Assembly: GCA_013176395.1 (NCBI GenBank)
Contig: JABMLP010000032.1
Span: 124,001-188,000 of the forward strand
Source of the DNA: Venturia oleaginea
Taxonomy: Eukaryota > Ascomycota > Dothideomycetes > Venturiales > Venturiaceae
Direction of reading: 5' to 3'
Length of the DNA: 64,000 nucleotides
Shown here piece after piece: positions 1,695-11,545 of the stretch; position 1 is the first letter of the stretch; each line of letters opens with the position of its first letter. The notes under the pieces are model-generated. The model saw only the letters and a program-made list of their open reading frames with translations, was not told the origin of the DNA and did no database searches. Made by a program: the position numbers and the translations under genes.

Positions 1695-3006
1695 ATCTTT
1701 GCTGCACCGTCATTAGTCGGGAAGAACTGGGTATCCCGCTTCATCAACGCTCAGCCGGAGCTTTGTACGAAGTGAAATCGTAAATTCCATTCACAGCGTG
1801 CAAAATGCGAAGATCCAGCGACAATCAACGCGTGGTTTCAGCGTGTTGAAGAGACGCGTCTGTCGTACGGCATCCTTACGGAGGATATATATAATTTTGA
1901 CGATTGGCTTTATGATGGGGGTTATCGCGACCCCAAAGGTGGTTACAAGCGCAGATACAGTCGGACGAGCAACTGTTGTACAGCCAGGGAATCGTGAATG
2001 GATAACAGCGATTGAGGAAATCAACGCGTCAGGCTGGGCAATTCCGCCGTTTATTATCCTTCCTGGAAAAGTACATCAATCAAACTGGTACCGTCAGTTA
2101 CCGGCCGATTGGGTTATTGCTATCAGCAATAATGGCTGGACAACTGATGAGCTTGGATTTGAGTGGATCAAGCACTTCAATACTCATACCGAAGCTCGTA
2201 CGAAGGGTACCCACCTCCTCCTTATCCTCGATGGCCACAGCAGTCACGCAACACCAGACTTTGACGAATATTGACGTACGAATAACATTATCACACTCTG
2301 TATGCCGCCACACACATCTCATCTTCTTCAGCCGCTTGATGTAAGCTGTTTTTCGCCTTTGAAACGCTCCTACGGTCAAGCAGTTCAAGAGCTTGTTCGT
2401 CAGGGAACCCACCATATTGATAAAGAGGACTTTCTATCAATCTATGCAAGCATCCGACCTACTATCTTCTCTGAGCAGAATATTAAGAGCGGTTTTCAAG
2501 CGACAAGAATTATTCCGTACGACCCGCAGCGCGTTCTTTCGTCGCTTACAGTTACCAAAACGCCCTCACCACCAGGTACACCCCATGGAGTAGCGCCACA
2601 GTGGACGTCAGAAACTCCTCGTAAGATAGCTCAGCTTGAGCAGCAGGCTCAGCTCGTCCGAAATCTTCTTCATCGCCAATCTCAGAGCCCAAGTAGTCAA
2701 GCAATTGGTCAACTCATCAAAGGATATCAAGTCGCAATGAATTCAGCAGTAATACTTGCAGAAGAGAATAGGAAGCTTCGTACAGAGAACCAACGACGAA
2801 AACAGAAGCAACAGTATCGCAGACGATATGTTGAATATGGAGGCGTTTTACAAGCTCAACAGGGTCAGTTCTTGATCGAGGGATGCGAAAATAGCTCTAG
2901 AGATAGTGTTCAAGATCAGGAAGTCGTCGTACGACAGCGAACATTACCAACATGTAGTGGCTGCGGTATTCAAGGTCATAAGATTAATCGATGCCCAAAT
3001 ACGTAA
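1695..3006 (+). pseudogene. pogo/Fot1-like (Tc1/mariner) DDE transposase, copy 1, dead
   Basis: Coding similarity begins at VGKNWVSRFINAQPELCTK (CENP-B/Tc5-type DNA-binding end) and continues through KCEDP, the DDE core (GNREW, LLILDGHSSH, CMPPHTSHLLQPLD), a coiled coil and a C-terminal zinc knuckle CSGCGIQGHKINRC. Defects: a TGA at 1773-1775 where a Trp is expected, a small deletion near 1900-1908 that breaks the frame at the first catalytic Asp (DET), and an in-frame TGA at 2272-2274 where the two sister copies have Cys. The N-terminal helix-turn-helix is missing. It aligns residue by residue with the minus-strand copies near 28 and 61 kb. The stop at 3006 is followed by about 125 bp of terminal sequence. 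Confidence 0.85.
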
Positions 3007-3085
3007 AGAATGTATTGTTAGAATTATTTAACAAAAGCTGTATTGGTGGGAGGTTTATCGCACGATGACTTGAGATTTAGTGGTT

Positions 3086-3133
3086 GGGGTGGCCAAGTGA
3101 GTGGGGTGGCCAAGTGAGTGGTGAAACACGTTA
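3086..3133. repeat. Probable right end of pogo copy 1 with subterminal direct repeats
   Basis: GGGTGGCCAAGTGAGTG occurs twice in direct tandem, followed by ACACGT and TA. The other two pogo copies end in ACGT next to a TA target duplication, about 105-116 bp beyond the transposase stop; here the distance is 125 bp. The repeats resemble the GTGGCCACT subterminal repeats of copy 2. No matching left end was found, so the boundary is inferred from one side only. Confidence 0.45.
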
Positions 3134-4333
3134 ACTTAGTCACAAAACATCTTACTAAACTTGTGGCTGTTACAGTAGCGTCCACCTCTAGCTTCCGCTT
3201 TTTTGCGCACGAACGAACATTGTAGCCAGAAGACCCTCGTAGAAGAGTCTGGAATGTTTTTGCCCTTTGGTTGATTACTAAGAAATGTCGAGGTGGCTTA
3301 CGGAATCTTCTAGAGAATGGAATTCTAATGAACATAAATACATGCGCGCCTCTTGACCTTATGTATCATAGATACAAAAAACAATAGAACAAGAAGAAAG
3401 GAGAACTTAGACTTCTTCTTCATCTTCTTCTTTATTTTAAGTAGAATTCTACTACAACAAGTAGCTTGTTACAGATCACCTCAAGACCGAAGAGCAGGGA
3501 CAACGGGACCTGCAGAGGATGGTTGGATAACAAGAAGTTGTTGTTAGGACTGATGTGGAGTGGAATCCGTTGGGCTTACAAGAGGGGACTGGTGCAACCA
3601 GGTCAGTCCTAAGAGAGAATAGTACATGCAGGAGTCACGTGATATTCCCACAGTTCCCACAGCACTTGGCATTGCCCACTGTGTGGGAAGTGTGGGAATA
3701 CACCTTGGCACCCAGAACCAGAAGGGTATATAGGGAGGACGTTGGACGGACTTTCCTTTCTCTCTTCGTGGTTATCTCATGTTATGTTTCTCACATAGGA
3801 GCTTCTTCAACCTACTACAGTAACGACCTTTTACTTAGATACAATCAAGCACAAGTCATATGCACACGAAGCAAGCCCACCCCCAACCTTCATACTAACC
3901 GACAAGCGTTCAGGATTGATCTGAGGATCAAATCGGTTAGACGACAATTGAATTGGGAGATACATCGGACGGCTAGGATCTAGTGAGCCTCCAAAGAACC
4001 TGAGCAAGGAAAGGTACTTAAGGTAAGTACTTCCAGACTGATATTGCCCTTACCCCAAACCCGCGGACCAGAACAAGAGAACACAGGCGTCAAGAAGGTC
4101 TTGACATAATCAACTGTGTTGAGAAACGAGTTCCCCGTAACATAGCTACACAGATTGCCCTATCCTTGAAGTTCATTATGCAAGCTTCGATGATCAAACT
4201 CTAAGCTTAAGACCCTACCGTTTTTGAGCCCGATGGCTACCTAATCACCTCTTTCATCGTAAGAGCTAAGCTCAAAATTTGAGATCAGTAGAAATATAGG
4301 CACCGATCCATAGCAAATCCACCGATTGAAAAC
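3134..4333. other. Non-coding stretch with LTR-like or promoter-like segment
   Basis: No supportable gene. The part from about 3546 starts TGTTAGGAC, contains TCACGTGA and a TATA-like GGGTATATAGGGAGG near 3726, then pyrimidine-rich sequence, a composition typical of an LTR. I could not find a matching terminal CA with a target duplication or a second copy in the window, so its identity is open. Confidence 0.3.
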
Positions 4334-6776
4334 TCAGTGATCTTCATAATCATAGCTAGGCTTTCGACTACCTACATCAAAGTTTTTAATCTTGACCGGG
4401 CCAAGGTTCGTTACGAAGCGTTGAACATCTTTACAGAATTCTACGGCGTGGACACGACTGGAGTGACCTGCGAGCGTCTTCTGAAGGTCGCCTGTCATGG
4501 TATCCCACAGCTTGATGGTCTTGTTCCAAGATCCCGACGCAATCTGCTTGCTGTCGGGCGAGAACGCTACGACCTCGACCGCACTGGAGTGACCTGCGAG
4601 CGTCTTCTGAAAGTCGCCTATCGTGGTATCCCACAGCTTGATGGTCTTGTCCATAGATTCCGACGCGATCTGCTTGCCGTCGGGCGAGAACGCTACGGCC
4701 TCGACCCAACTGGAGTGACCTGCGAGCGTCTTCTGAAGGTCGCCTGTCGTGGTATCCCACAGCTTGATGGTCTCGTCCCCAGATCCCGACGCGATCTGCT
4801 TGCCGTCGGGCGAGAACGCTACCGCCTGGACCGAATAGGAGTGACCTGCGAGCGTCTGAATTAGAGACGCCCAGGTCTCATCTACTCTAGGGAGTTTTCT
4901 CAGCCATCTGGGACCCTTATTCAGATTTTCCCTCCTCACAGCACTTGCTTGGGGGCTGAAAACGATCGCAGAGCTGTAAACCTGCAATGGCCAAGTTGCC
5001 ATAGTCTGATAGTGACGCAATACAAAACGGGTAGCATCCTCTATATATTTTGATATATATGTTTTTCCCTACCAAACATTAGTAATATTAAATCTCTAGA
5101 TATTAAAAGCGTATAGACTGACCTCCACCATTTCTCTTAAGAATTTAAGTCCCTCAAGAGCGCGTGGAAGCTCGTCTGGTAGACTCAAGTATTCCAGCCA
5201 TTCTAACAGCTTCTTGTAAAGAAATAACTCCACTTTCCCTTGCTCGGCAATTGCATTTTGTATAAGTTTGGTGTGCTTGGCGACGTTGAGATGCTGCACC
5301 CAGAAGGTAGCGGCATAGTCCATGCCAACTCGGCGTTCTTCTTTTCAGTGCTTAGCTCTTTCATCGATTCCCTCGTTGAATCAGGCCGCGTAAGTTCCAT
5401 AAGGTTGACCTTGAGCTGGCTAAAGAGGTAAGACAAACAACTCAATGCAACATCGCCATGCTCGTATAGTCCGAGAGAGTCAAGGATCAATCTTCCATGG
5501 TCTCCAACCAAGTAGTCTCTCGCTGATTGATGAACAAAGTCGATATCGGTATCTCTTCTCTTAACGAAGGAGGCACATCGATCTACGAACTCTTCTAACT
5601 GATCGTTAGGAAGGCCCGTCACTGCAGCTACTTCCTCTAGCTTCAGAGGCCTGTAGACGAGTAGCATGACCTTTAAAAATCGTAGACACTCTTTGGCAAA
5701 GCCGCCTTGACTGAGTTCTTGGAGGATTAGATTGTAGAAAGGATGCAGACCGGGTGGCAACTCTTGAATCGTTTCTAAGACCTTGTCACTAGCCACACTC
5801 TCGAGCCTCGCACAAACCAAGCTCACCCATAAGAATGTGTCCTCGGCCTTCCCCACAAGTGCTGCCATGACATTCCGAAGTAGTGCCGGTCCATATCTCT
5901 GGCGACAGCCGAGCTCAGCCGCTTTCGAAGCCACATACGTCTTCACACCTTCAGCAATATGACCCGAGTTTATCTCTAGGCTTACCAGCTCCTGACCAGA
6001 CCCAGTACGCAACTCTTTCTCCGCGCTGTCGAGCGGTCGGCTTGTCAAAAGCCACCTGGTCTTCGAGCGGTGGCTGAGTCCATTTCGGACGACGCTTCTC
6101 AGGAAAACAGCCATGCCCTCTTCTTTGCACTCATCAAGAGCATCCACCACCACCTATATCCTTTGGCTCATGCTTTGGTTCAGCATTTCCAACAATATAT
6201 CCCAAAGTACTCGCTATGATGTGATATCTTTATTGAATCGTCCGTTCCCTGCATCCCAATGGCGTCGTAGACATTCTTTGAGCTCTTTTTGCTGACTGAT
6301 TAGCCGGAAAATCAATCCCTTAATAATCGGTTTGATAGTATTGAGCTCGTAGTCAGCGTTTTGACAAAAGAAGTATGTGACCATTGTGCCCTTGTCTTGT
6401 GCTAACTGCTCGATGAGACCGATTGACATCATCGTCTTGCCCTTGCCTGCACCGCCCTTGATCCAAAGCAGACCAACGTTATTCTCATTATGCCAGCCGT
6501 GTATCTCGGATCACGAAAGATTCAACTGATGGATTCGTAAAGTAGCTTGTCCTTCTCTCGCAGCCTACTTTTGACGGCGAACGGATCGGGGCATTGTAGA
6601 GTACGGAGGCAGGCGCGGTCTATGTCTTCGTTGGTGTACGCTATATCTATTTGTTAGCCTTGTTCATTTACACTGATTAGGTCTGAGGAAAACGTGCCCG
6701 TAGTATGATTGACGTTGTTGATCATAGTTGATCCTGGGCCGGCATAATTTCCGCTAATGTCAACATTAGTGGTCAT
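4334..6776 (-). pseudogene. NLR (STAND) immune-type receptor: N-terminal amyloid-like motif, NACHT, WD40; pseudogene
   Basis: Exon 1 (ATG at 6774-6776) encodes about 30 residues including VDISGNYAGPGSTMI. After an intron ending near 6645 comes the usual NLR linker (CLRTLQCPDPF), a P-loop GGAGKGKT near 6440, Walker B VVDALDEC near 6140, the NACHT and winged-helix region, an intron at 5039-5122, and WD repeats of 126 bp that are nearly identical (LAGHSS.V.AVAFSPD..QIASGS..KTIKLWD). Defects: TGA and a frame change just before the P-loop, TAG at 6214-6216 (Trp expected), TAG near 6156 (Tyr expected) and a frameshift near 5323. In this family ligand sensing by WD40 repeats drives NACHT oligomerisation and templating of an effector. 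Divergently paired with the 7080 gene. Confidence 0.85.
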
Positions 6777-7079
6777 GATCGTGTATTCGCGTAATATCGG
6801 CGCAGATAGATGACTATCCACTGTTAAACGTGTACACAGTCGTGCGGAGGATGAGATCTTTTATCTCGCAAATTCCTTCATGATACTTCGAGCTGAATAA
6901 TATCTTGCTCGTGACTTTTTAGGAAATACAGGAGCGGCCAATCATCGTCCACCATTAACCGCCCTCTGTCTTTGATTATCTTTCAGCTGCGGGGTATAAA
7001 TATCCTCTTCTGATTTTCTGTCTCTCCCGCCATCACTTTCTAACTGGAATCTACTTTTTGTTACTATTGCAACGTTCTC
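6777..7079. promoter_or_regulatory. Shared divergent promoter region of the NLR/effector pair
   Basis: Only 303 bp separate the two start codons, which point away from each other, so both promoters must lie here or overlap the 5' ends. A TATA-like GGGGTATAAATA at about 6992-7003 lies about 80 bp upstream of the plus-strand ATG and is followed by a pyrimidine-rich tract. No inserted repeat is seen between the genes. Confidence 0.5.
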
Positions 7080-8201
7080 ATGGCCGAAGTAATTGGACTG
7101 ACGTCTGGTATTCTTACCGTAGTCATTTTCGCCGATGACACGAGTAAATCACTATACGAAGCAATTTCCAGCTTCAAAAGCCAGCGAAAAACGATTAGAG
7201 ATATTCTGACCGACCTCAATTTTCTCGCTACCGTGCTCGCATCTATTCGCGAGCAGGCTCAACGGTTGTCGGAAGTTGCAAGACTCGAGCCTCTCAGGGA
7301 GCCATTGAACTGTTGCACGACAGTATGTCAAGAGATGCGCGAAATGCTCGATGCTTGCACAACGCATTCGAAAGAAGGTCGGGATAGTGTACGGGATTGG
7401 CTCCAAATGCGATATAAGGAGAAGACTTTCGAAGATGTGAGAAAACGACTCGCTAGCCACAAGTCGACACTTACTATTGCATTCGAGTCAATCAACATGT
7501 AAGTAGACATCAGATACTTAATGCGCAAAGAAATTTAATTTAATAGCGAATATCATTCTACTACTCAAGAATCACTGAGAAATCTCAAAGATTTAATCGG
7601 CGGCACCAAAGAAGACTTGGAAGATCAGCTAGAACAAGTGCAACAAACCATCAGTTCTGGAAATTTCTCCTCACGAGATATTCTTCAAGACGATCTTGCT
7701 CAGCTGCAAAACAGTCTCAGCAGTATCGCACGAGCTCAGCAAATCGCGGACACAGCTCGTCCTGAGGTTATAATCGAGGGGAATGAAGCTAGACAGGGTG
7801 CTCGCGCACTTTTTGGCACTGATACGGTGCAACCCGAGTTCAACTTGAAAGTTTCAAAAAATAAGGCTGGACTGGGCGCCACTATGAGTGCTGGCGTTCA
7901 CAGTTTGCAAACTCTCCAAGCGCTACTTGGAAACTCTCAGACACCAAATCTCGCGCTCGCTCTTCAGGCATTGCAGACCCAATCATCAAACACTAATTCC
8001 GAATCTCTACAGTCCATCCTAAAAAATCTTTCAGCTGAACACCTAGGAGAGCTTACGGGCAAATCGTCGGAAATGACCCCCCTTACGATTCCAGAGCCTT
8101 TGGAATATATAGATACAAGAAGAACTGTTGGAGCGGGGAGATCAACAACATCTGAAAGTATTAGCAACGATAGCAAAGTGCTTGGACAGTATAGTAAATG
8201 A
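7080..8201 (+). CDS. PigL_N/Helo-like domain protein with two C-terminal amyloid-like pseudorepeats (putative NLR-paired effector)
   Basis: Exons 7080-7498 and 7547-8201, with a 48-bp intron (GTAAGT..TAATAG), sum to exactly 358 codons (357 aa). Residues 1-140 (MAEVIGLTSGILTVVIFADD...) match the fungal STAND N-terminal domain known as PigL_N or Helo-like. A coiled-coil-prone segment covers roughly 145-205. Then come two related segments, VIIEGNEARQGARAL (214-228) and LKVSKNKAGLGATMS (240-254). They share hydrophobic residues at positions 1 and 3, N6, A8 and G11 with the first exon of the divergent NLR. HET-S carries two HET-s-type pseudorepeats after a membrane-active helical domain in the same way. 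The gene is intact while its NLR partner is dead. The domain call is confident; prion-like templating and a cell-death role are inference. Confidence 0.8.
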
Positions 8202-8716: not shown

Positions 8717-8767
8717 TAGTGAAGATACCGCTTTATACAGTAGAGTTGACGAAGTGTCCAACAACCT

Positions 8768-9290
8768 ATGTCCACGGTTTCATCCAAAGATCAAGGGAAA
8801 CGAAAAGAATCCGTTCCACCGCCGCCTCCGCCGCCTCCGCCGCAAAGACAACGTACGGCAGAACCCGAGTCGGACGAAGACGAGTCTGAAGAAGAGGTGG
8901 CAACTCAAGCTACACCAAGCTCTTCAGGACGGAACGAATCCCTCGACGATCGAAACAAAGCTAAGGTCAAACCACCAGAAGTGTTCAAAGGGGAACGCGG
9001 CAAGCTCAAGACATTCCTTACACAATGCAACCTGTATATGTATTGGAACGCTTCCGAGTTTAGTATCCATGAAAAAAGATTCATGTTTGTCATCAGCTAC
9101 ATGAGAGGAACAGCTTATGCATGGATCGAAGACCGCCTCAACGGGTATCTCGATGATCCCAGCGAGTATGAGCATCGACGACTCTTTCTTTCGTATATGG
9201 AATTTAAGAAAGAAATCAACATAGTCTTTGGAAATGTTGATGAGAGGAGAATCGCCGAACGAGAGCTCAAGGTTTTGGGACAACATACAT
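8768..9290 (+). pseudogene. Ty3/gypsy Gag, 3'-truncated
   Basis: Starts MSTVSSKDQGKRKES, then a nine-residue proline run coded by a CCG-rich microsatellite, an acidic stretch, and a retrotransposon gag core (PEVFKGERGKLKTFLTQCNLYM, FVISYMRGTAYAWIEDRL, FKKEINIVFGN). After GQHTSAAD near 9296 the sequence stops resembling gag and becomes antisense to an unrelated coding-like segment. No protease, reverse transcriptase or 3' LTR is present, so the element was broken here by deletion or rearrangement. Confidence 0.8.
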
Positions 9291-9704
9291 CCGCAGCAGA
9301 TTCTTTGCTGCCTTGGCTTCTCTCTCTGCCTTCAAGGCTGCCGCTTTCTGTCTCTTCGCAAGTCTCTCTTCTTTAGTCAATGCCCCAGAGTCACCCTGTT
9401 TTGCTTTCTGTCTTTTTTGAGGGTCTCCCAGATGTCATCCGCTTGGGCTGCTGTATAGGCTCTGAGGAGGAGGAGTAGTCTGTAGTTGATCTATGTGTAT
9501 CGAGATAAGCCTTGGCTGCGGCATCTGATAGGGTGGGGGAAAAGGCGTGAGGAGGAGGGTTTTCGAAAAATTTGGTAGTTCAATGTTAACGGGGGCAGTT
9601 TGCAAAGCCAGATGACCCACGGCGGAGTGGTGGCTCTTAGAGACAGCTCTAGAAAGTGTATTCATTGTTACGGCCGTCTCAGACTGTCGAGGGCGTCTGT
9701 ACAA
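9291..9704 (-). pseudogene. Fragment of an unidentified gene abutting the gag breakpoint
   Basis: Read on the minus strand, 9435-9704 is open from an ATG and rich in Ser, Thr and Pro. Other frames below it give AAQADDIWETLKK and a lysine/alanine helix (ALTKEERLAKRQKAAALKAERE), which looks like genuine coding sequence broken by frameshifts. I do not recognise the family. It ends exactly at the gag junction, so the 3' part of the gene is missing. Confidence 0.35.
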
Positions 9705-10059: not shown

Positions 10060-11239
10060 GAGGCTGTCCAGGATATCTGTCAATTCCCTATATATTTTCG
10101 GGCTCTTGTTAAGATCGACATGTTGACATAGACAGGAATCCACTTGTCAGCAACACCAATGGCTGAAGATTCTTCAACAGTCTTGGATAATGTGAGACAA
10201 TCATCAAGACTAAGGTACAGGGCGCTCGCACTCACCCAATCGAAAATAAACCGAAAACACGTGTCGGCAGTTTCTCATAAAATGACACAATTTTAAGCTT
10301 CTCTCTTCGACCTTCCTGATTATTTACAAGGCTGCGAAAGTCACAATCTAAGTCGAAGAGTTGCGCTGAATTATCTCTTAGTGCATAAAGGAGTGTGGTA
10401 TCGGATCCGAGTACGCCAGAAACAAAGGCTAGAGCAGCAGCGGGCATAGACAATGCCGAGCCATTGTGAGAGGTGCCAAGAAAGGCGACGCCACAGGTAC
10501 TGTCAACGATATTTTGTTCGGCCGCGAGCAAGGCCTTGAGTGTGCATTAGCAGGGAAGTGAGCTGAGCCGAGTTGACTTACCTGCTTGATTACGATGCCG
10601 CCGAAGCTGTGGCCGATGAAGATGATAGGAGTTGACTGGTAGTCGTATTAGCAAGGTCAATTCCGGGACTCGGAGAGAGTCTTAACTCCCTACGAGGGTA
10701 GTTGACACATCTCTTGCTAACTCCCCCAACAACCTGTCAGCGATCTGCTTTGCCGTCACAACTGGAGCATTGATGAACCAGTCAGAATTGTAGCCAAAAC
10801 TGAGAATTCTAGCATCTGAAAATTCTGGTCTTAAGACATGGTCCAGTAATGATATGTGCCGCTTCTTCTTATCCGTTCCAAATTTATGTGTTTCCGTTTC
10901 GAGTGCAGCCTTGATCGAATCAGAGAGGTCTTAAGACTGTACTAAATCTTTCAGCTCCTTCTTCGAAAATCTCCAGGCCCATGTAAACTCTGGATGAGCG
11001 CCAAGACCATGGACTGCAACGATGCAGGGGTTGGCTAACTTGAATTTAGGATTAGTGGACCTAGAAATCTCGACTATGCCATCCTGGTGGCCCTGTCGAC
11101 GGTGTCTGAAATGGGCATCGAGGCTATATAGAATGCAAAGGACCGCTGTTAAAACGAAGGCAAGTGTCGCGGAGGCGAGGGTCGAGGGCCAGCCGGGTAT
11201 AATGGGTAGAGCTATCGCTGAGTGGGGCTGGTTGACCAT
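10060..11239 (-). pseudogene. Alpha/beta-hydrolase-fold (DUF676-like) serine esterase, disrupted
   Basis: Residues about 20-40 form one membrane segment (LASATLAFVLTAVLCILYSL). Then come IVAVHGLGAHPEFTW and, after an intron at 10636-10693, the nucleophile elbow IFIGHSFGGIVIKQ. A second intron (10535-10581) precedes ALLAAEQNIVDSTCGVAFLG and FLGTSHNGS. This matches the lipase-like domain often found at the N-terminus of fungal NACHT proteins, but no NACHT follows. Defects: an in-frame TAA at 10931-10933 in the first exon, and a frame change near 10110 before HVDLNKSPKIYRELTDIL, where the catalytic His is expected. Both lie inside conserved sequence, so I call it a pseudogene; an assembly error would change that. 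Confidence 0.6.
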
Positions 11240-11283
11240 AGTGTCTCTGCTACTTCTTCGCCTCCCTATAGCTGGTCGTGTCG

Positions 11284-11545
11284 ATTGAAATCCCCTATAA
11301 CTAGGAGTTCTGGCTCGTGTCCAAGCTCTTCTGCTATATCTCTGATTGCATCTTCTAGCAACCGGAGCCGTTCTATCACTGCAGTCCTGTCCCGCTCTCG
11401 GTGTGCTTCTGCCGGTGATACGTACACCGAGGCTGTGAGGATTACTTTTTCTTGAGTTTTGATGAGGATTACTGTAATGTCAGGGGACGCAATTGGGATC
11501 TGTTTGTATTTGAGCGTTTTCCGGGTTCATATCATTGATCGAATG
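11284..11545 (-). pseudogene. LINE (non-LTR retrotransposon) endonuclease fragment
   Basis: The minus strand reads RQIPIASPDITVILIKTQEKVILTASVYVSP.. LLVIGDFNRHD. This is the endonuclease/exonuclease/phosphatase fold with the SVYV strand and the catalytic GDFNRHD motif typical of Tad1-like LINE ORF2 proteins. It stops abruptly at the hydrolase 5' side, and no reverse transcriptase is present. Confidence 0.7.

Follow-up and report, generated by a model that had tools for sequence, protein, structure and literature searches.

The window analysed here, a 64-kb stretch of the Venturia oleaginea genome (46 Mb assembled in 61 contigs), contains two divergent genes that share a short motif, present once (r0) in a nucleotide-binding oligomerization domain-like receptor (NLR) gene and twice (r1 and r2) in an effector gene. 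Their start codons, at 6776 on the minus strand and at 7080 on the plus strand, lie 303 bp apart, and the intervening stretch is possibly a shared promoter region. The effector is an open frame (7080–8201, plus) that begins with the ATG at 7080, is interrupted by a single intron and yields a product of 357 residues; its relative P0001 aligned with the spliced product over the full length (79% identity, 100% coverage). PF17111 (PigL_N) matched residues 2–194 of this product with E=9.4e-45, confirming the domain type given in a first-pass annotation made from the letters of this DNA; the family is named Helo_like_N and is termed HeLo-like in a 2022 survey (PMC9815663). The NLR gene is of the NACHT-WD40 type and runs on the minus strand from the ATG at 6776 down to 4334, with matches of its pieces to NPHP3_N (E=2.5e-17) and WD40 (E=1.7e-42). 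Its motif-bearing first exon, which had been taken to encode 30 residues, comprises 79 nt, i.e. 26 codons plus one base (Table 1).

Table 1. Coordinates of the receptor/effector pair (window positions) and of a second pair, L012, in the same genome (positions within L012).
Feature	Position	Strand	Basis or remark
Remaining NLR (NPHP3_N/NACHT NTPase, linker, WD40 repeats), pseudogene	4334..6640	-	Reading frames compared with relatives
NLR intron 1, 57 nt, GC..AG	6641..6697	-	Sequence; donor is GC instead of GT
NLR exon 1, 79 nt (26 codons + one base)	6698..6776	-	End set by eye against the NLR N-termini of relatives
NLR motif copy r0, 19-mer	6708..6764	-	Sequence; matrix scan
Intergenic stretch between the divergent starts, 303 bp	6777..7079	.	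From gene positions; promoter role possible
Effector exon 1, aa 1-139 + 2 bases of codon 140; start of PigL_N/HeLo-like domain	7080..7498	+	Reading frame; PF17111
Effector intron, 48 nt, GT..AG	7499..7546	+	Sequence; end-to-end alignment of the spliced product
Effector exon 2 incl. stop; PigL_N end, two repeats, 99-residue tail	7547..8201	+	Reading frame, alignment
Effector repeat r1, aa 214-232, 19-mer	7767..7823	+	Top 19-mer with the relatives' matrix; gap-free in 66/67 aligned sequences, window included
Effector repeat r2, aa 240-258, 19-mer, 26-residue period from r1	7845..7901	+	Second-best 19-mer; gap-free in 64/67, window included
Effector tail, 99 residues after r2	7902..8198	+	Conserved at its start, where helix is predicted; low confidence towards the end
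L012 effector	2531-3500	-	
L012 NLR	from about 3790	+	

The common core of r0, r1 and r2 consists of hydrophobic residues at positions 1 and 3 (Ala at position 1 in three NLRs), Asn6, Ala8, Gly11 and Ser/Ala12. The first-pass annotation had located one motif in the first exon of the NLR (6776, minus) and two in the effector, starting at residues 214 and 240, and had described positions 1, 3, 6, 8 and 11 as common to all three. Letters and coordinates of the copies were right (the r0 19-mer occupying 6764–6708 on the minus strand), the same core was found in the relatives of both genes, and the identity of 7/15 that had been counted between r0 and r2 was correct when checked by eye.

In favour of a chance or low-complexity resemblance of the NLR exon to the two effector segments, the motif is short and the 15-mer identity within the window is modest by itself: the best ungapped 15-mer alignment of the exon-1 frame with the effector has 8 identities, and 4 of 1000 shuffled exons did as well. 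A matrix was then built from r1 and r2 of the effector relatives, leaving out the window and all NLRs, and was run over the 61,696 stop-free 19-mers in the six frames of the window. It ranked r1 first (46.0 bits), r2 second (38.3) and the NLR exon third (14.5), the fourth 19-mer scoring -1.4. The reverse matrix, built from r0 of the relatives and giving a weaker scan, placed the r0 of the window first (46.0), r2 eighth and r1 33rd, and r0 is therefore regarded as a distinct version of the motif. When a profile of r1 and r2, including the window's own repeats but no NLR, was searched against 122 NLR N-termini, the window exon was the top match (E=3.1e-4) and all 10 matches at E<1 were r0 bearers; an r2-only profile gave eight matches at E<1, with the window third (E=0.011), and an r1-only profile matched none of these N-termini. 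The similarity is thus better than that of shuffled sequence, and the matrix rank, together with the conservation of the motif in relatives of both genes and the pairing of these genes, led us to reject chance resemblance, which we consider extremely improbable.

Both repeats are conserved between species. A search with the effector yielded 66 relatives at E<=1e-3, with 40–79% identity to the window protein; many were metagenome pieces roughly as long as exon 2. In the resulting alignment of 67 sequences including the window, from which gapped copies (one for r1 and three for r2) were dropped for counting, Asn6 was present in all copies (66/66 r1 and 64/64 r2), Gly11 in 61/66 and 56/64, and Ala8 in 55/66 and 50/64, respectively. 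For the NLR, its first 75 residues used as query detected four relatives, and in none of them does the called or annotated protein start with the motif. When the search was widened with a chimeric query containing the window exon, 1422 NLRs scored at E<=1e-20, the best 120 of which were considered, and r0 was found at the N-terminus of 16 of the 121 fetched NLRs, 13 by pattern and three more (P0104, P0124 and P0147) in which Ala replaces Val/Ile at motif position 1. Other NLRs of the subfamily thus have the motif; since the query held the exon and the best 120 NLRs were taken, 16/121 should not be read as a frequency. Among the 17 r0 copies, window included, Asn6, Ala8 and Gln14 were each present in 16 and Gly11 in 13, and the motif started at residues 4–6 in 14 NLRs and at residues 8, 10 and 18 in the other three. 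The bearers belong to Aspergillus, Penicillium, Exophiala, Endocarpon, Didymella, Parastagonospora, Curvularia, Westerdykella, Gyalolechia and Teloschistes, which we take to be members of the Eurotiomycetes, Dothideomycetes and Lecanoromycetes, and also include metagenome sequences. In the closest named NLR, P0068 (Cenococcum geophilum 1.58), the annotation starts immediately upstream of the conserved exon-2 sequence and the motif is absent, in keeping with the first-pass remark that annotation can miss exon 1.

The two genes also recur as a pair. Besides the window, adjacency was found in two further species as consecutive locus tags, namely in Didymella (effector N0V86_000627, NLR N0V86_000626) and in Parastagonospora nodorum (effector HBI23_254250, NLR HBI23_254240). 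In three more cases, A. wentii (P0008/P0090), P. angulare (P0014/P0146) and a 4349-bp metagenome contig (P0047/P0071), effector and NLR were found on contigs of equal size and therefore probably share one contig. In Gyalolechia gomerana both genes are present in the same organism on different contigs.

The two repeats of HET-s-related motifs carry anti-correlated charges at equivalent positions, which is taken as consistent with in-register stacking (PMC4518210). We looked for such a signal in 61 distinct effector sequences at the 24 position pairs with enough charged residues. The two strongest anti-correlations between r1 and r2 were both in-register, at motif position 5 (r=-0.76; 30 opposite and 0 same) and at motif position 7 (r=-0.71; 47 opposite and 0 same), the next one being -0.25. 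Both charge orders occur, and the window exhibits the rarer one at position 7, with Glu in r1 and Lys in r2. Under independent evolution, simulated in 3000 runs on a 63-tip tree from which the motif columns had been left out, the counts observed on these tips (31/0 opposite/same at position 5 and 47/0 at position 7) were judged by a joint measure, i.e. as many opposite with as few same, or as strong a correlation; for each pair this was reached in 0/3000 runs, while four off-register controls gave shares of 0.15–0.29. On the net count alone the shares were 0.0043 and 0.0037 for positions 5 and 7. The signal has limits, in that full sign flips on the tree are limited to one and three independent pairs, which were complementary throughout but too few for a sign test, that with a looser coding position 5 was no better than some off-register controls, and that corrected mutual information put two off-register pairs above the in-register pairs, which ranked 3 and 4. 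The in-register charge complementarity is, by analogy with the published motifs, a mark of HET-s-type stacking. The anti-correlated positions reported for HRAM1-5, the five published classes of HET-s-related amyloid motifs (HRAMs), are 4, 6, 7, 11, 12 and 13 (PMC4518210), and those of the window family correspond to 7 and 9 in HRAM numbering, so that one coincides. The fraction of charged residues was 0.10 in r0, 0.10 in r2 and 0.25 in r1; low charge has likewise been reported for the r0 motifs of HRAM systems (PMC4518210).

Structure prediction with AlphaFold2 gave both repeats one and the same strand pattern (predicted local distance difference test score, pLDDT, 84–89), next to the predicted helical domain. 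Foldseek searches with both models returned no match at E<=0.001; HELLF (6eka) appeared with E=2.0, and no HET-s fibril was among the matches listed. As regards a relation to HeLo or MLKL domains, the structural match lists were filled by the helical parts. A sequence search of solved structures with the effector alignment revealed nothing real, the matches being three antibody chains with E between 0.42 and 0.83. Directly after the repeats, residues 259–310 (7902–8057) form a conserved segment predicted to be helical, for which we know of no counterpart in HET-s-type proteins; the whole tail after r2 measures 62–108 residues in the 16 effector proteins checked and 99 in the window.

To compare the motif with known systems, it was placed in the HET-s register, in which the motif numbering is shifted by two. 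In r1, hydrophobic residues occupy positions 5, 10, 16 and 18 in 66, 58, 53 and 65 of 66 copies, Gly19 is present in 65/66 and Arg/Lys15 in 62/66; in r2, the corresponding values are 64, 64, 49 and 56 of 64 for the hydrophobic positions, 64/64 for Gly19 and 0/64 for Arg/Lys15. Four of the five core positions thus agree in 77–100% of the effector copies, and Gly19 in 129/130. At position 8, the fifth, all 130 gap-free effector repeats have Asn, and a hydrophobic residue was found in 0/66 r1, 0/64 r2 and, counting Cys, 1/17 r0. The NLR copies have neither Gly19 (0/17) nor a hydrophobic residue at position 18 (0/17). The full HET-s pattern was passed by 1/67 effectors (shuffled mean 2.7) and by 0/16 of the r0 NLRs. 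Two NLRs of the search list, P0184 and P0159, have N-termini (first 45 residues) that do pass it. PF11558, the HET-s prion domain, did not match the effector or the NLR exon frame at E<=1; this is a weak exclusion, as 38 of 155 HRAM proteins match that model (PMC4518210). A PF11558 search of the own genome gave no match, and neither did its control.

Judged by its sequence, the motif is HET-s-like and closest to HRAM, but lies outside the published HRAM1-5. An HRAM proper was set aside, though most of the register fits, and the motif was not filed under HRAM1-5, because of the Asn at position 8 and the absence of Gly19 from the NLR copies; the first-pass statement that it is near but not equal to the HET-s type is borne out in this form. 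It might still be a drifted member of HRAM1-5 and not a distinct class, a question of classification only and compatible with the explanation preferred below. The hydrophobic positions and Gly19 of most effector copies, Arg/Lys15 of r1, and the Gln at position 16, with which HRAM5 is described (PMC4518210) and which 16 of the 17 NLR copies have, all point that way. Against this stand the invariant Asn at position 8, the lack of Gly19 and of a hydrophobic position 18 in all 17 NLR copies, the unmatched PF11558 and the failure of almost all effectors and all r0 NLRs on a pattern that two HET-s-like NLR N-termini pass, and we regard drift as a possibility somewhat on the doubtful side.

With NWD2/HET-S of Podospora anserina (HRAM1) and with HRAM1-5 in general, the window pair shares the adjacency of an NLR and a HeLo-type effector, one motif at the NLR N-terminus and two in the effector, the four core positions and Gly19 in the effector repeats, the charge complementarity of r1 and r2 and a charge-poor NLR motif; unlike them, it has Asn at position 8, NLR copies without Gly19, and internal repeats. 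FNT1/HELLF of P. anserina (HRAM5) is similar in that a HeLo-like effector with a double repeat lies next to an NLR (PMC7889193), but HELLF has 277 residues and a C-terminal repeat domain (PMC7889193), whereas the repeats are internal here and the structural match is not significant. The PP, sigma, PUASM and GDQN systems follow the same receptor-to-effector logic with a common short motif, and PP-like patterns do occur in NLRs of the search list; the patterns of PP (NxGxQxGxN), PUASM (FxGxGxQxxGxGxF) and GDQN (NxxxGxQYxxxGxGDQNxVSxxxxQxN), however, do not fit r0, r1 or r2 by eye (PMC9815663, PMC12261475). Two N-terminal motifs of Ascomycota NLRs, NLR34 and NLR40 with 28 and 26 residues, are given without an effector in Table 1 of Wojciechowski et al. 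2022 (PMC9815663); either could include r0. A literature search of main texts found no description of the present motif. The HRAM survey of 2015 covered proteins of <310 residues and read their last 80 residues (PMC4518210), and the 2022 survey used 100-residue C-termini of neighbouring proteins (PMC9815663). Of 16 effectors, 15 have 320–375 residues and 15 have >80 residues after r2; their last 100 residues contain the whole of r2 in three and the whole of r1 in none. The motif could therefore have been missed by these surveys, as the length limit and the C-terminal windows would exclude internal repeats.

We consider it probable that the pair is a receptor/executioner module of two genes like NWD2/HET-S, with a motif class of its own. 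The 1+2 architecture to which the first-pass annotation had drawn attention is supported by the conservation of the motif, the recurrent pairing and the charge covariation. By analogy with the published systems (PMC4518210, PMC5485727, PMC12881547, PMC7889193), the NACHT-WD40 receptor, with one r0 near its N-terminal end, would oligomerize on ligand binding and bring the r0 copies together, which would fold into stacked beta-rungs. This stack could template r1 and r2 into a two-rung beta-solenoid that would grow as an amyloid-like polymer, and polymer growth would release the helical domain to cause membrane damage and cell death. Alternatively, the motif could be a folded docking module, in which a soluble two-rung r1-r2 structure takes up the NLR N-terminus as a third rung, with binding but no prion-like growth. 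The evidence for a shared motif fits docking equally well, the strand patterns of AlphaFold2 were predicted within one chain, and the conserved, predicted helical segment after the repeats differs from the C-terminal repeat domain of HET-S and HELLF (PMC4518210, PMC7889193). Docking is nevertheless unlikely in our view, since one copy against two, the N-terminal placement in the NLR, the charge-poor r0 and the r1/r2 charge complementarity are all known features of HET-s-related systems (PMC4518210).

Several caveats apply to this reading. Ligand sensing, oligomerization, amyloid formation, templating and cell death are all inferred by analogy. As to the covariation of the two genes suggested at first pass, the pairing recurs, but a pair-specific covariation of r0 with its own effector was not found in seven pairs, 828 of 5040 permutations being as good. 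Nor did r0 follow a rule of being closer to r2 than to r1, which was so in two of the seven pairs, with two ties and three of the opposite kind. Finally, the NLR of this genome is a pseudogene and the locus the remnant of a system: when three frames were read against the relatives, at least three in-frame stops and two frame changes were counted, and a genome search showed two TAG codons within the NACHT match. A search of the own genome for a second r0 with the 40-aa exon frame, a short query of limited reach, gave no match at E<=10. With its receptor broken, the effector with its open frame is left an orphan unless it responds to another receptor; it may be a remnant without regulation or be activated in some other way.

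A second divergent PigL_N/NACHT-WD40 pair with a different motif exists in the same genome (L012, G000:C15:576500-585500; Table 1). Its effector repeats have all five core positions and Gly19, and its NLR N-terminus has three of the five and Gly19. As these effector repeats fit the full HET-s register, we count the L012 pair as support for the receptor/executioner module. In a NACHT tree of 121 NLRs (P0067–P0187), the r0, PP-like and long N-terminal types required at least 10 changes, each type being clustered, and P0067–P0070, the nearest relatives of the window NLR, fell into a supported set of 14 rows together with four r0 bearers. A single receptor chassis appears to have swapped its N-terminal signalling modules repeatedly.

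More broadly, we see an even chance that the motif defines a separate amyloid-signalling family, sister to HRAM1-5, in which Asn replaces a core hydrophobic residue in every gap-free effector repeat and the repeats lie between a PigL_N helical domain and a conserved tail. Such a family would span several ascomycete classes and would have been passed over by surveys of C-terminal ends and short proteins, and frequent exchange of the N-terminal modules would have re-wired receptors to different executioners. Only a handful of amyloid signalling motif families have been described in fungi, and this would extend the list by one whose genes are paired in several fungi. If true, an Asn at a core position of an otherwise equal architecture would offer a natural test of cross-seeding barriers and of whether an executioner can be driven by a repeat domain that is internal and not C-terminal, and surveys limited to protein ends may undercount amyloid-signalling systems. 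The window adds a case of a decayed receptor gene next to an executioner gene that is still open.

A third pair with the same layout (L013, G000:C43:25500-35000) shows a transposase-like frame between the PigL_N exon and the NLR, as judged by eye without a family search; an open repeat-bearing part after the PigL_N exon was not seen by eye. Within the window, pieces at 10232-11479 on the minus strand gave the impression of an alpha/beta hydrolase of the SesB kind. A SesB-type lipase as third partner was rejected, as the three pieces had no Pfam match at E<=0.01 and no 19-mer among the six best. The pair itself is flanked by transposon remnants at 335-928, 2275-3003 and 8750-9373, with weak sub-cut-off integrase-type matches and matches to a DDE_1 transposase (E=9e-11) and to DUF4939 (E=1.5e-9), which we take to be gag-like.

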